The translations under genes and the position numbers were made by a program. Shown in pieces: positions 27,061 to 33,026 of a stretch of DNA of 45,683 nucleotides. The DNA lies in the NCBI GenBank assembly GCA_001593935.1, contig LUCE01000009.1:1-45683 (forward strand). Reading direction: 5' to 3'. Position 1 is the stretch's first letter; every line of letters starts with the position of its first letter. The notes under the pieces are model-generated. The model made no database searches, was not told where the DNA came from, and saw only the letters and a program-made list of their open reading frames with translations. The stretch comes from Candidatus Bathyarchaeota archaeon B26-2 (lineage in GTDB: Archaea > Thermoproteota > Bathyarchaeia > Bathyarchaeales > B26-1).

Positions 27061-28686
27061 TCAGACGTGTTGGTTCATAATCTCAGCTCTTATCCCTACG
27101 AAGACGGGTCCTGAGATGTCGATCCTCCTCTTCCGACCTGTTATGTACCTTCTGGCTACGTTGCTTATCTTGATGTTGACGTCACGGGGACGTCTGACGA
27201 TCCTCACGCGGACGTCCACTTGGTTCCGCCCAACTTCAGCGGCCTCCTCAATCTTAGCTGCGGCTAAGGCGGCTATCCCTTCTATATAGGTGAGGTTTGT
27301 TGAGACGCCCCTCTCTCTAGCCTCTCTGATGATTGGGATGTGGTCCATACCCTTCGCTGGAATTCCTAACACGTTTCCCTCGTAGACGTGGATGACATTC
27401 CTAGCCGCTGCCCCCAGAAGCTTGGCTCCGCGCTCCTTCTCGTAGAGGTAGACCCTCACCACCTTACCGAGGAGTCTTCCCTCGTAAGCGAGGACTTCAC
27501 ATGGGCTCGGGTCATCAGCGTGCGCCAGAGCCTCCTCGACGATTCTCCGCTTTATCTCGTGGCCTTCTCTGGTTTTGGGTTCAATCTCGTAGCCGATCAT
27601 CCCCGCGATCTCAACATCTGTGAGTCTCCATTCACCATAAAACTGGGGGTATACAAGTCTCCTAACGTCTTCTTCGCCGTAGAACGCCAAGGCAACCCTC
27701 TCAACCCCAACCCCAACGTTCAAGACTGGATGTTCAAGCCCATACCTCGCGAGGGCTATCGGGTTGTATAGACCGAAGTTGGCGACTTCGATCCACCGCC
27801 TCATTTTGGGATGGTATATGTAGCCTTCATACTCCATGCCAGGCGTGTAGTACTTTGAAGTTACCTTCTTTCTGACGAAGCGGAACTCCTTAAACCCCAG
27901 GGGTTCAAGTAGGTTCCTTGTGATCTTTTCGCCCTCTCTGACGTCTACCGCCTCGTCCATGACGACGCAGCTCGCCGCGTGATGGACTCGAAGGTGGGTC
28001 GGGTCTTCCTTCTGCTCCCTCCTGAACCGGATGCCGACCGAGAAGAGTTTTATCGGCATCTCGACTCTGTGCTGCAGAGCCTGCAATGAGAGGAACCAAG
28101 CGGTCGTCATGTGTGAACGAAGTGTTAGGTTTGTCGGCTCTGGACGTAGAGACGTAAACTCCGAAAAGACTTTTGAGATTATGAGTGTAGCTGTAGCATC
28201 GGGCACTTCTAAGGACTCAGATACTCTCTCTATAAGATCGTCGGCCTCGATCTCGCCCCGCTTATAATCTCTAAGGACAGTCTTCAAGTTGGATGTCCTC
28301 TCCTCGGTCATCTCAACTCCGAGGCCCTCGATCTCTCGGCACTTTGCTTTACTTAGACCTATATCCGGCCTCGGTAGGACCGCTAGGTAATAGCAACGGT
28401 CCAGTATCACTGGGGCCTCGGGTCCATACTGCCTGTAGACTTCCGTGTCCTCAACTATTACTGGGTTAGCGACCTCTGTGAAGCCTTGGTCTAGGAACGC
28501 CTTTCTCATTCTCTCTATGAGGTCGAAGAGAGGGTGGGAGGTTCCGCGTCCACGTAAGGGTAGGCTGTAGCCCTCGGGAGGTCTGGGTAGAAGGTTCCCG
28601 CTCTCCTTCCAGACCTTCTCGAACCCTTCAACCTCGACCCGTTTCAGTATCTCCTCCGGGTTGAGATTCTCCCTCACTTCCCCCAA
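27061..28686 (-). CDS. sepS: O-phosphoseryl-tRNA(Cys) synthetase SepRS
   Basis: NLTLRSHMTTAWFLSLQAL, RFRREQKEDPTHLRVHHAASCVVMDE, WIEVANFGLYNPIALARYGLEHPVLNVGVGVERVAL, C-terminal region consistent with SepRS. Confidence 0.92.
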   Translation of the reverse strand: MGEVRENLNPEEILKRVEVEGFEKVWKESGNLLPRPPEGYSLPLRGRGTSHPLFDLIERMRKAFLDQGFTEVANPVIVEDTEVYRQYGPEAPVILDRCYYLAVLPRPDIGLSKAKCREIEGLGVEMTEERTSNLKTVLRDYKRGEIEADDLIERVSESLEVPDATATLIISKVFSEFTSLRPEPTNLTLRSHMTTAWFLSLQALQHRVEMPIKLFSVGIRFRREQKEDPTHLRVHHAASCVVMDEAVDVREGEKITRNLLEPLGFKEFRFVRKKVTSKYYTPGMEYEGYIYHPKMRRWIEVANFGLYNPIALARYGLEHPVLNVGVGVERVALAFYGEEDVRRLVYPQFYGEWRLTDVEIAGMIGYEIEPKTREGHEIKRRIVEEALAHADDPSPCEVLAYEGRLLGKVVRVYLYEKERGAKLLGAAARNVIHVYEGNVLGIPAKGMDHIPIIREARERGVSTNLTYIEGIAALAAAKIEEAAEVGRNQVDVRVRIVRRPRDVNIKISNVARRYITGRKRRIDISGPVFVGIRAEIMNQHV

Positions 28687-29323
28687 CCTCTGTTATGGCG
28701 TCTTTCAACTCCCTGATTGAGCGTTCGAGATTGATCCTCCGCGCCTCTATGGTTATGTCTCCCCGCGTCGCCTCTATGATCCGTCGCGCGATGTCGCACT
28801 TCTTTCTAAGTCCGTGGATTAGGAAGAATGCCTCGTCCATACCTATCAGCTCCGAGTATATGGTCTCCATCAGCTCTAGGCTGCTCTCAGCAGTCTCTAT
28901 CTTGTTCCTCCTTATCGAGTCGAGAGCCCTACGTCTCAGCTCTCCAATGACGTCAGCCAACCCCAAGACATAAGAGACCATGGGGACGCCTATCTCGTCG
29001 AACCCGACGAACCTACCCTCCCTAACCAGCCTCAATAAGATATGAGCCTCAGAGTACTCTTGGAATGCGGCGTCTACTATGCCGGAGTAAGCCAGGTCAG
29101 GGCTCTTCTTCGACGCTTCTTCAAGTGTCTTGAAGAGGTTCTCCGCCTTCTCAAGAGTCTTCTCGGCCTCCTCTAGTCTCTCTTTGTGGATCAAGAAGAT
29201 CGCCTGCTTCGAGAGGCGTGTAGCTTTACGCATGGCCGTCTGGACTTCTTGGCGGACCTCGTCTCTACGCTTGACCTCTTCCTCAACCTTCTTAAGGAAC
29301 TCTCTCAGCGACATAGCGTCCAC
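28628..29323 (-). CDS. translin family protein
   Basis: RKATRLSKQAIFLIHKERLEEAEKTLEKAENL...SGIVDAAFQEYSEAHILL...GVPMVSYVLGLADVIGELRRRALDSIR; overlaps the sepS start by up to 59 nt. Confidence 0.85.
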   Translation of the reverse strand: MDAMSLREFLKKVEEEVKRRDEVRQEVQTAMRKATRLSKQAIFLIHKERLEEAEKTLEKAENLFKTLEEASKKSPDLAYSGIVDAAFQEYSEAHILLRLVREGRFVGFDEIGVPMVSYVLGLADVIGELRRRALDSIRRNKIETAESSLELMETIYSELIGMDEAFFLIHGLRKKCDIARRIIEATRGDITIEARRINLERSIRELKDAITEVGGSEGESQPGGDTETGRG

Positions 29324-30791: not shown

Positions 30792-33026
30792 CTAAAGGGC
30801 GTTCAAAGGCTTAGTTACGTACTTCGCCGACTTCCTTACGAAGCGTACCATGTTCTTGACGGAACCGCAGACCGGGCATTTTGTGGCTTCTCCATAGAAG
30901 AGTCTATCGCAGTTGCTGCAGTAGGTCATGTCCCTACTGTAGGTGTATAACCCGATCTTATGCGCATTCACGATCTCCCTTGTGGTTGAGAGGAGGTTCT
31001 CTGGCTCGTCCTCTTTCTCGTGGATGGGTATCGGTGTTAAGTGGCTTCCCGGAGCCAGCCTATGGAACTGTTCCTCGATTCTAAGGTATTCCCGTAGAGG
31101 TATCCCCGCCTCAGCCGGCACAGCGGTCATGTCTGTGTACACTGGATTTCTCCTGCCTCCACGAACCCGAACCTTGGCAAGCCCGTACCTCTCTATGTCG
31201 AGCTCCGCAAGCCTCCTAGCGGCGCCTTCACACGGGACCATGGAGAGGTTGAAGCGGGCCTCAGGCCTCTTGGAGTAGTTCTCCAACTCCCTAGAGAGGA
31301 AGGTGACTATCTCTATGGCCGCCTTTAAGGACTCCTCGCTTCCGTGAATTGGGCTGCCGGAGATCGACTGAACGGCCTCATTTAACCCAACGAACCCAAC
31401 TAAACGGGATGAGTTCTCAAGCCTGTAGTATGGGTCTCCGTTCCTACACTGTGTCAGGAAGGGGAGCAGCCTCTCTCCCGCCCTCTGTTTGATCGTGAGA
31501 TACTTTATCTCTAGGGCTCGAGCCGCCATCTCCATCCTGTCGTGTAAGTGTTCGAAGAACCTACCTCGGTCTCCCCCAGAGTCGTAGTAGGCCCGTGGAA
31601 GGTTTATGATTACGCTGTCCATGATGCCCGTCCTCAAGGTGTCGAGCTCCCAGTCCCCACTCCATTCAGAAGCCAACCTGAATCCGGTAGCCGCGTAAGA
31701 GGCGTACATCTGCTCCTTCGGGACGAGGTTCGCGAAGTACGGGGTTCCCTTCTCGAGGGCCAGCCTATGAGCCTCGATGAGCGTCCGTTCGGCCCCCTCA
31801 TCCTTGAAGGCCTCAGCTCTGATCTTCACGATTACGCTTGGGTTGAGGAGCGGCTTCTCTTCATCTAGCATCGCTTTTATAATCGATGAGGCGATTAGGA
31901 GGCTCTCCCCGGCGAAGTCTCTGTAGGATCCGAAGGTTTTTCCGTTGGGGCCTATCGCGGGCGCCTCGGCTATAAACTCGGGGGTTATGAGTTCGATGCC
32001 TATGGAGACCCCCCTAGAGACTATGTGGTTCACCTCGATGAGGAAGTTGTGGATGACCTCCCTAACCTCGTCGCGGTTCATATTCTCAACAAAAGGCGCT
32101 AAGAACACGTTGAAGAAGTCCACGGTCTGTTCGCCTATAGACTCCCTCGCTGCGAGCTTGAGAACCTCAACCGTCATGGAGAGGGCTGACTCAAAGCTCT
32201 TAGGAGGCTTGCGGGAGGCCTTCACCAAACCTGGGCCCGCGGAGAGTCCGTGCTTAAAGAAGAAACGGATGTCGTGCATGATTCCGTAAGGCTTCAGAAT
32301 CCAGCAGCCTAGATTGTTTATGTTGAGGGAGCCGGAGATATGTGCGTCGGCTATATCCCGGGGTAAGATGTTGAGGAGAGCATACTCCTCTAAGACGGCG
32401 TCTCCAGCCGCCTCATGTACGGCTTCGACGTCGGCCGCTTTTAGGCTCATGGTCTTGATCAGCTGAGTTACGTCGTAGACTGGGAGTCCTAGGCGTGTGA
32501 GCTTGTGTCGGTACTCTTCGAGACCCCTCTCGATGAGGATGGCGTTCACGAACTCCCTTATGAGCGGGGCGGTCAAATACTTGGTCCTCAGCTTCGTTAG
32601 GCGTCTCTCAGCCTCTCGAGCTATGCTCTGAGCTAGGTCTGCGGGGACTCCCGCCTCCTTTATAAGTGATTCAGCTATCTTGCTCCTCTCAAAATATTCT
32701 AGGGAGAGCCGTGAAGTCCTGACGAGCATCCTCTTCCTCTGGAAGGCGCTCTCCTCTATCTCCTCGGCGACCTCGACGAGTTTCCTACCGAGGCCTGTAA
32801 GCCTATACTTCTTCTTCTCTACGTCGGGCTCGATCAAGTCCATCTTGAGCAGGGTCTTGAGGTGGTACGCGAATCTCCCCGCATCCCTACTCGGCTTGAG
32901 TTTCAGGAGGTTCATTATCTCAGTGTAGGAGAGGGGACCTCTGTTCATGAGCAGGTCGAGTATCCTCAGCCTAATCGGTGAGGAGACTGCCTTCAGCACC
33001 TTAACACCTAGAGGTTCACGGGGCAA
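30792..33026 (-). CDS. ArsR-type HTH + ATP-cone + NrdD-like protein with C-terminal Zn ribbon; lacks glycyl-radical and catalytic residues
   Basis: HTH SPIRLRILDLLMNRGPLSYTEIMNLLKL; ATP-cone VRTSRLSLEYFERSKIAESLIKEAGV...; RLGLPVYDVTQLIK; SVIINLPRAYYDSGGD; LVGFVGLNEAVQSISG; CSNCDRLFYGEATKCPVCGSVKNMVRFVRKSAKYVTKPLNAL. Confidence 0.85.
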   Translation of the reverse strand: MPREPLGVKVLKAVSSPIRLRILDLLMNRGPLSYTEIMNLLKLKPSRDAGRFAYHLKTLLKMDLIEPDVEKKKYRLTGLGRKLVEVAEEIEESAFQRKRMLVRTSRLSLEYFERSKIAESLIKEAGVPADLAQSIAREAERRLTKLRTKYLTAPLIREFVNAILIERGLEEYRHKLTRLGLPVYDVTQLIKTMSLKAADVEAVHEAAGDAVLEEYALLNILPRDIADAHISGSLNINNLGCWILKPYGIMHDIRFFFKHGLSAGPGLVKASRKPPKSFESALSMTVEVLKLAARESIGEQTVDFFNVFLAPFVENMNRDEVREVIHNFLIEVNHIVSRGVSIGIELITPEFIAEAPAIGPNGKTFGSYRDFAGESLLIASSIIKAMLDEEKPLLNPSVIVKIRAEAFKDEGAERTLIEAHRLALEKGTPYFANLVPKEQMYASYAATGFRLASEWSGDWELDTLRTGIMDSVIINLPRAYYDSGGDRGRFFEHLHDRMEMAARALEIKYLTIKQRAGERLLPFLTQCRNGDPYYRLENSSRLVGFVGLNEAVQSISGSPIHGSEESLKAAIEIVTFLSRELENYSKRPEARFNLSMVPCEGAARRLAELDIERYGLAKVRVRGGRRNPVYTDMTAVPAEAGIPLREYLRIEEQFHRLAPGSHLTPIPIHEKEDEPENLLSTTREIVNAHKIGLYTYSRDMTYCSNCDRLFYGEATKCPVCGSVKNMVRFVRKSAKYVTKPLNAL

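Follow-up and report, generated by a model that had tools for sequence, protein, structure and literature searches.

The window analysed here is the whole 45,683-nucleotide stretch of contig LUCE01000009.1 from Candidatus Bathyarchaeota archaeon B26-2. It encodes a protein, hereafter HTH-NrdD, in which a winged helix-turn-helix (wHTH) and an ATP-cone precede a class III ribonucleotide reductase (RNR) fold that is devoid of key catalytic residues. Comparison with its relatives indicated that HTH-NrdD is probably a one-component transcription factor that senses nucleotides and controls RNR and pyrimidine genes; it would derive from an RNR, and resemble NrdR despite an independent origin. We consider this reading the best because catalysis has been lost, the HTH and the cone have been retained, the gene is linked to RNR genes whatever their class, and NrdR is scarce. 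The initial annotation had suggested that an RNR had become an allosteric transcription factor; the family-wide loss of catalytic residues, the presence of separate RNRs and the linkage to RNR genes across classes lend support to that proposal. The features of the protein are as follows.

30792..33026, minus strand: HTH-ATP-cone-NrdD-like protein, 744 aa, TTG start (ORF, Pfam, AlphaFold and Foldseek)
32772..33002, minus strand: ArsR-type winged HTH, residues 9-85 (PF01022/PF24038 and alignment; 67% mean pairwise identity)
32502..32729, minus strand: ATP-cone, residues 100-175, VRTS-type like that of active NrdD types B and D (PF03477; 74% identity)
32442..32453, minus strand: lost NxN substrate flap site, residues 192-195, TMSL replacing ENAN (alignment; 0/39 HTH-NrdDs versus 19/19 catalytic NrdDs)
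30957..32429, minus strand: NrdD-like barrel, residues 200-690, catalytically degenerate (PF13597, AlphaFold and Foldseek)
32283..32285, minus strand: Gly248 where the first catalytic Cys (E. coli C175) belongs (alignment)
31677..31691, minus strand: finger-loop residues 446-450, ATGFR replacing CCRL (alignment)
30867..30920, minus strand: zinc ribbon, Cys 703, 706, 717 and 720, all four invariant in the alignment of relatives
30795..30866, minus strand: C-terminal tail SVKNMVRFVRKSAKYVTKPLNAL at the place expected for RxxGY and the glycyl loop (sequence and alignment)

Pfam, AlphaFold and Foldseek agreed on the order of wHTH, ATP-cone, NrdD-like barrel and zinc ribbon read from the sequence by the initial annotation, and established that the protein has an NrdD fold with a zinc ribbon. 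HTH_5 matched residues 16-66 with 26.5 bits, above the 22-bit cut-off. The ATP-cone (residues 100-172) scored 22.8 bits, below the cut-off of 25.8; members of the family from ammonia-oxidising archaea (AOA) passed it. The NRDD profile PF13597 spanned residues 200-728 (E=8e-80) and profile positions 9-534 of 562, and since the match stops at position 534, the missing portion corresponds to the C-terminal glycyl stretch. The AlphaFold model, built from a 31-sequence alignment, had a mean pLDDT of 85.6, and its top Foldseek matches were all crystal or cryo-EM structures of NrdD (best E 7e-28, TM-score on target <=0.76). The ArsR/SmtB metalloregulator model NF033788 reached 27.7 bits against a cut-off of 55, and the NrdR profile TIGR00244 gave no match to the protein.

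The loss of catalytic residues was analysed in a residue-level alignment of 39 HTH-NrdDs, E. coli NrdD and 18 catalytic NrdDs from archaea that represent four types, with residue roles taken from the P. copri and T. maritima enzymes (PMC11226230, PMC4493059). The 84 columns that are invariant or nearly so in catalytic NrdDs fell into a kept and a lost set. Positions on the HTH side and in the cone, N475-x-P-R, G547, E550, D610, Y630 and the zinc cysteines were kept; the NxN flap (ENAN, 0/39), the strand cysteine (0/39), both residues of the CC motif (0/39), the T-P-A-E stretch and RxxGY were lost. In the window protein, G248 occupies the position of the strand cysteine, YAATGFRL that of MCCRL/QCCRL, KSAKY is found with no RxxGY, and the flap ENANxxxN is gone. 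Thus the alignment recovered neither a catalytic cysteine nor a radical glycine motif, and the replacement of MCCRL and the missing RxxGY both stood as the initial annotation had described them; the loss of the flap was absent from it.

The same pattern was examined in a larger set of 145 rows, from which one catalytic type-D protein (L146) was set aside to leave 144 distinct members. RxxGY was found in 0/144 members; the 50 catalytic NrdDs used for comparison had been chosen by possessing this motif. The strand cysteine occurred in 1/145 rows, taken to be the single catalytic type-D entry. The suggestion that Gly and Cys might be uniformly lost in these fusions therefore held for RxxGY, the strand cysteine and the CC motif. 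It did not hold for every single position: a Cys was present at the radical-Cys position in approximately 27/144 relatives, without its partner Cys and without the radical Gly-Tyr, and a Gly was present at the glycyl position in 5/39 aligned relatives, never within RxxGY. Absence of the finger-loop Cys was consequently dropped as a lone proof of inactivity, given these relatives and the counter-example of T. maritima NrdD (PMC4493059). Deep members of the family retain a glycyl loop in which the Gly has been substituted or stands in a different context (HYGRLTTRYETISSWDYGKR in L266, RVYGKYLP in L260), which suggests that the loop probably decayed gradually. A frameshift hiding an RxxGY tail, the other explanation raised at the outset, was ruled out, as the reading frame of an 82%-identical sister (L004/L033) terminates alike.

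Conservation differed between domains. Within the order to which the window belongs, mean pairwise identity was 67% for the HTH, 74% for the ATP-cone and approximately 41% for the rear barrel, and 77% for the core of the catalytic type-A NrdD. The recognition-helix region D-A-G-x-F-A-Y-H-L-K (DAGRFAYHLK in the window protein) was invariant or nearly so across the order, as was much of the cone. The barrel retained a core of pocket residues (N475, P477, R478, G547 and E550). Shortened forms of 540-620 aa exist in some lineages, and in short forms from families f25, f29 and f40 much of the barrel has drifted past recognition, indicating that barrel ligands cannot matter in every member.

HTH-NrdD is widespread. 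Among 398 genomes sampled across the phylum Thermoproteota, 254 matched the combined HTH and cone profile at E <= 1e-12, a count that includes the cones of some catalytic NrdDs. The protein was found in all but a few of the 61 genomes in the order of the window, the closest named genome being Candidatus Bathyarchaeota archaeon B26-1 (82% identity over the protein), and carriers include AmoA-positive genomes, that is, AOA. In these AOA carriers, no NrdD-like protein besides HTH-NrdD, and no catalytic NrdD, was found. The tree placed all its HTH-NrdDs in a single clade (35 rows, SH-aLRT 100 by a quick method and with some long branches), which grouped near catalytic types B, C and D; branches joining these groups were weakly supported. 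Searches of viral contigs returned no HTH-NrdD relative, the phage matches being ordinary NrdDs. One genome of another class holds, in addition to its own shorter form, a Bathyarchaeia-like HTH-NrdD (L272, G065:C13) that reflects either transfer or binning contamination. At G027:C9:15617-15805, elsewhere on the contig, the C-terminal part of HTH-NrdD (residues 679-741) recurs as a short second copy with 51% identity. No description of HTH-NrdD was found in the open-access literature searched.

The genomic neighbourhood links the family to RNR genes. A same-strand RNR gene lies directly downstream (at +1, or at +2 past a glutaredoxin-like gene) in 36/143 loci with readable neighbours. The class of this RNR varies by lineage: type A in G027, type B in f6 and f2, type C in f4 and f5, type D in L146, and class II in AOA, G364 and G077. 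HTH-NrdD precedes the class II gene nrdJ in 42/42 AOA genomes checked (8 genomes, and 34 more compared by gene coordinates). Two members of genus g6 differ in this neighbour, G006 having type C and G027 type A; in one genus, the catalytic NrdD type has been swapped in place (A versus C) behind the same HTH-NrdD (L052:6948-9062 versus L036:5522-7732). By our estimate, the probability of one such pair arising by chance, within 1 kb and in that order, is near 0.001 per genome, which puts several independent pairings well outside what chance would give. Aspartate carbamoyltransferase (PyrB) adjoins HTH-NrdD in 78/143 loci; it is convergent in most of them, and lies on the upstream side on the opposite strand, divergent from HTH-NrdD, in five distant members. 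In 14 loci (L006, L036, L059, L099, L100 and L171 among them), a protein of approximately 165 aa with a glutaredoxin domain (PF00462) is encoded between HTH-NrdD and type-C nrdD, and is a candidate for a dedicated reductant of the type-C enzyme. Some catalytic nrdD frames are 974-2826 aa long and match NrdD in pieces (L046:3350-6274, G073:C7, G065:C17, G129:C28); inteins are likely in these, as the L031 frame resembles a Hint/intein domain.

No RNR neighbour was present in the window genome or in families f1, f7 and f9. At the window locus the neighbours encode isomerase-like, alcohol-dehydrogenase-like, sulfatase and translin-family proteins and the O-phosphoseryl-tRNA synthetase SepRS, and neither RNR nor PyrB; the SepRS gene overlaps the translin-family gene on the same strand by approximately 59 bp (window 27061-29323). 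Proximity to RNR genes, as seen for NrdR, was thus found at the level of the family and not at the window locus. Separate catalytic RNRs were found elsewhere in the genome: a catalytic NrdD on contig C17 (658 bits, with MCCRL and RVVGY) adjoining a radical-SAM gene that probably encodes NrdG, and a class II RNR on contig C6.

Could NrdR itself control these genes throughout? This was ruled out by its distribution. TIGR00244 scored above cut-off in 12/80 genomes, all Bathyarchaeia (family f7, G011 and G024), and in neither the window genome nor any AOA among the 80 tested. Most HTH-NrdD carriers lack NrdR. In its carriers, NrdR typically sits right before type-A nrdD, which it directly precedes or overlaps in L078, L079, L082, L083, L085, L088 and L090-L092 (f7, G011, G024). 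In G024, NrdR is paired with type A and, separately and in parallel, HTH-NrdD with type B. NrdR and HTH-NrdD both combine an ATP-cone with a DNA-binding module, both are encoded with RNR genes (as is nrdRJ in S. coelicolor; PMC9110341) and both would carry out the same task. They differ in architecture: NrdR has approximately 150 aa and an N-terminal zinc ribbon for DNA, whereas HTH-NrdD has 540-860 aa, an ArsR-type wHTH, a whole dead NrdD and a C-terminal zinc ribbon. The NrdR-like logic with a different origin, proposed from the sequence at the outset, is supported by the RNR linkage, the lack of a TIGR00244 match and the descent from NrdD.

With class III RNR (PF13597), HTH-NrdD shares the ATP-cone, the barrel fold, the zinc ribbon and, according to the tree, direct ancestry; unlike NrdD, it lacks the radical Gly, the catalytic Cys pair and the NxN flap, carries an extra HTH and has a faster-evolving barrel. 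The wHTH is common to HTH-NrdD and to the ArsR/HTH_5-type and DUF7347 winged-helix regulators, but these are stand-alone metal or redox sensors and not fusions to an RNR. Enzyme folds other than that of HTH-NrdD have been reused as ligand sensors with a fused HTH, as in ROK/NagC, MocR and NadR. To our knowledge, no enzyme-derived repressor with a fused HTH comes from ribonucleotide reductase.

Candidate operator elements were found upstream of some family members. In Nitrosopumilaceae, several elements resembling AAAAnTGATCyAAAA precede the HTH-NrdD-nrdJ operon. In Nitrosopumilaceae, 22 upstream regions contained 88 GATC, compared with 14.9 +/- 3.6 in dinucleotide shuffles, and GATC spacings were multiples of approximately 10.3 bp (p=0.0003, likewise with one sequence per genus). 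The array was the densest GATC window in 2/3 16-kb loci checked and was seen only in Nitrosopumilaceae; loci L276-L295 and L234-L236 contain 2-9 GATC elements in this phase, up to a conserved promoter block (AGTCAyAArTCTTAwTTA). These elements may be sites bound by HTH-NrdD. NrdR binds helically phased pairs of boxes, and does so best when an integer number of helical turns separates them (PMC12051234). Other elements were considered. An inverted repeat like GTCTAAAAAATTAGAC lies just before the TATA region of type-A nrdD in genomes without NrdR (L074, L076, L081, L084, L086, L087) and is a possible operator. The palindrome-like GTCTAAnnnnTTAGAC, found by eye before some type-A nrdD genes with weak look-alikes before HTH-NrdD, was not accepted as an operator shared by the lone HTH-NrdD and nrdD of the window genome and remains a lead. 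In f5, f6 and f7, HTH-NrdD is preceded by TTTAAACT; this was set aside, as it coincides in part with the position expected for the TATA box and could simply be the promoter.

We propose that an ancestral thermoproteotal NrdD, related to types B, C and D, would have gained an ArsR-type wHTH and lost its radical Gly, both catalytic cysteines and the substrate flap, while keeping the ATP-cone, the barrel fold and the core of the pocket. Binding of dNTP or ATP in the cone, possibly also in the old specificity or substrate sites, would set the dimeric or oligomeric state, and thereby how the paired wHTHs sit on operator sites spaced in helical phase in the promoter of its own gene. Depending on the balance between dNTPs and NTPs, the class II or class III RNR gene downstream, and plausibly pyrB, would then be either activated or repressed. 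DNA binding, the identity of the ligand and the sign of regulation are predictions from sequence comparison, as are the targets wherever the gene stands alone, including in the window genome. Counting against a regulator are the canonical NrdR that already precedes catalytic nrdD in f7, the lack of an adjacent RNR in the window genome, f1, f7 and f9, the score of the window protein's ATP-cone below the Pfam cut-off, the finding of the GATC array in Nitrosopumilaceae only and the drift of the barrel in the short forms.

The most serious alternatives are a regulatory role at the protein level and a regulator acting mainly on pyrB. HTH-NrdD could be a pseudo-subunit adjusting the activity of the catalytic RNR (or of NrdG) through direct binding, with the HTH serving for dimerisation or for RNA or protein contacts. 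The immediate linkage to RNR genes would fit this, as would the facts that NrdD is dimeric and that ATP-cones mediate RNR oligomerisation (PMC11226230). However, the neighbouring RNR may belong to class II or to any one of the four class III types, which is hard to fit with one conserved interface; the recognition-helix region is among the most conserved stretches; and the HTH is still kept where the gene stands alone. We regard a pseudo-subunit as unlikely. That HTH-NrdD mainly controls pyrimidine synthesis (pyrBI), its RNR linkage being secondary, is suggested by PyrB being the commonest neighbour and by its divergent orientation in the five distant members, but in most loci the convergent arrangement leaves no shared promoter. 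As RNR ancestry and the ATP-cone point to dNTP sensing, and the gene stands in front of nrdJ in every AOA checked, we consider this quite unlikely.

Residual catalysis by another radical route, a possibility once wondered about for T. maritima NrdD with its Ile at the finger-loop tip, would agree with the intact fold and the retention of N475 and E550, and a missing tip Cys alone is no proof of inactivity (PMC4493059). Yet SCCR and the radical Gly are both still present in T. maritima NrdD, whereas HTH-NrdD has neither of these, nor the partner Cys, nor the NxN flap; its barrel conservation has collapsed and it is carried by aerobic AOA, which makes an active enzyme highly improbable. Drift of the barrel and the shortened forms might instead indicate that HTH-NrdD is a paralogue or pseudogene in decay, with no defined role. 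We disfavour this strongly and think it very improbable, since the frame is open in nearly all of approximately 140 members across the whole phylum, and the conservation of the HTH and ATP-cone is similar to that of the active enzyme's cone.

Collectively, the data presented favour an RNR-derived transcription factor. We lean cautiously towards a broader reading, in which a single exaptation early in Thermoproteota turned a whole RNR into a transcription factor; this would sense dNTP/NTP levels with its ATP-cone and former allosteric or substrate sites, and would govern both pyrimidine synthesis and RNR, whatever the class of the latter. If true, archaea would have in HTH-NrdD their own equivalent of NrdR, one kept by aerobic ammonia oxidisers, and no earlier regulator would be known to have arisen from an RNR. 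The finding also carries a warning for annotation, as aerobic archaea seem to possess an "anaerobic RNR" that they in fact lack. HTH-NrdD bears on whether RNR allostery can separate from catalysis and serve as a gene switch. It offers one testable candidate for the control of dNTP supply in archaea without NrdR across much of the phylum, including AOA, which are among the commonest cells in the sea.
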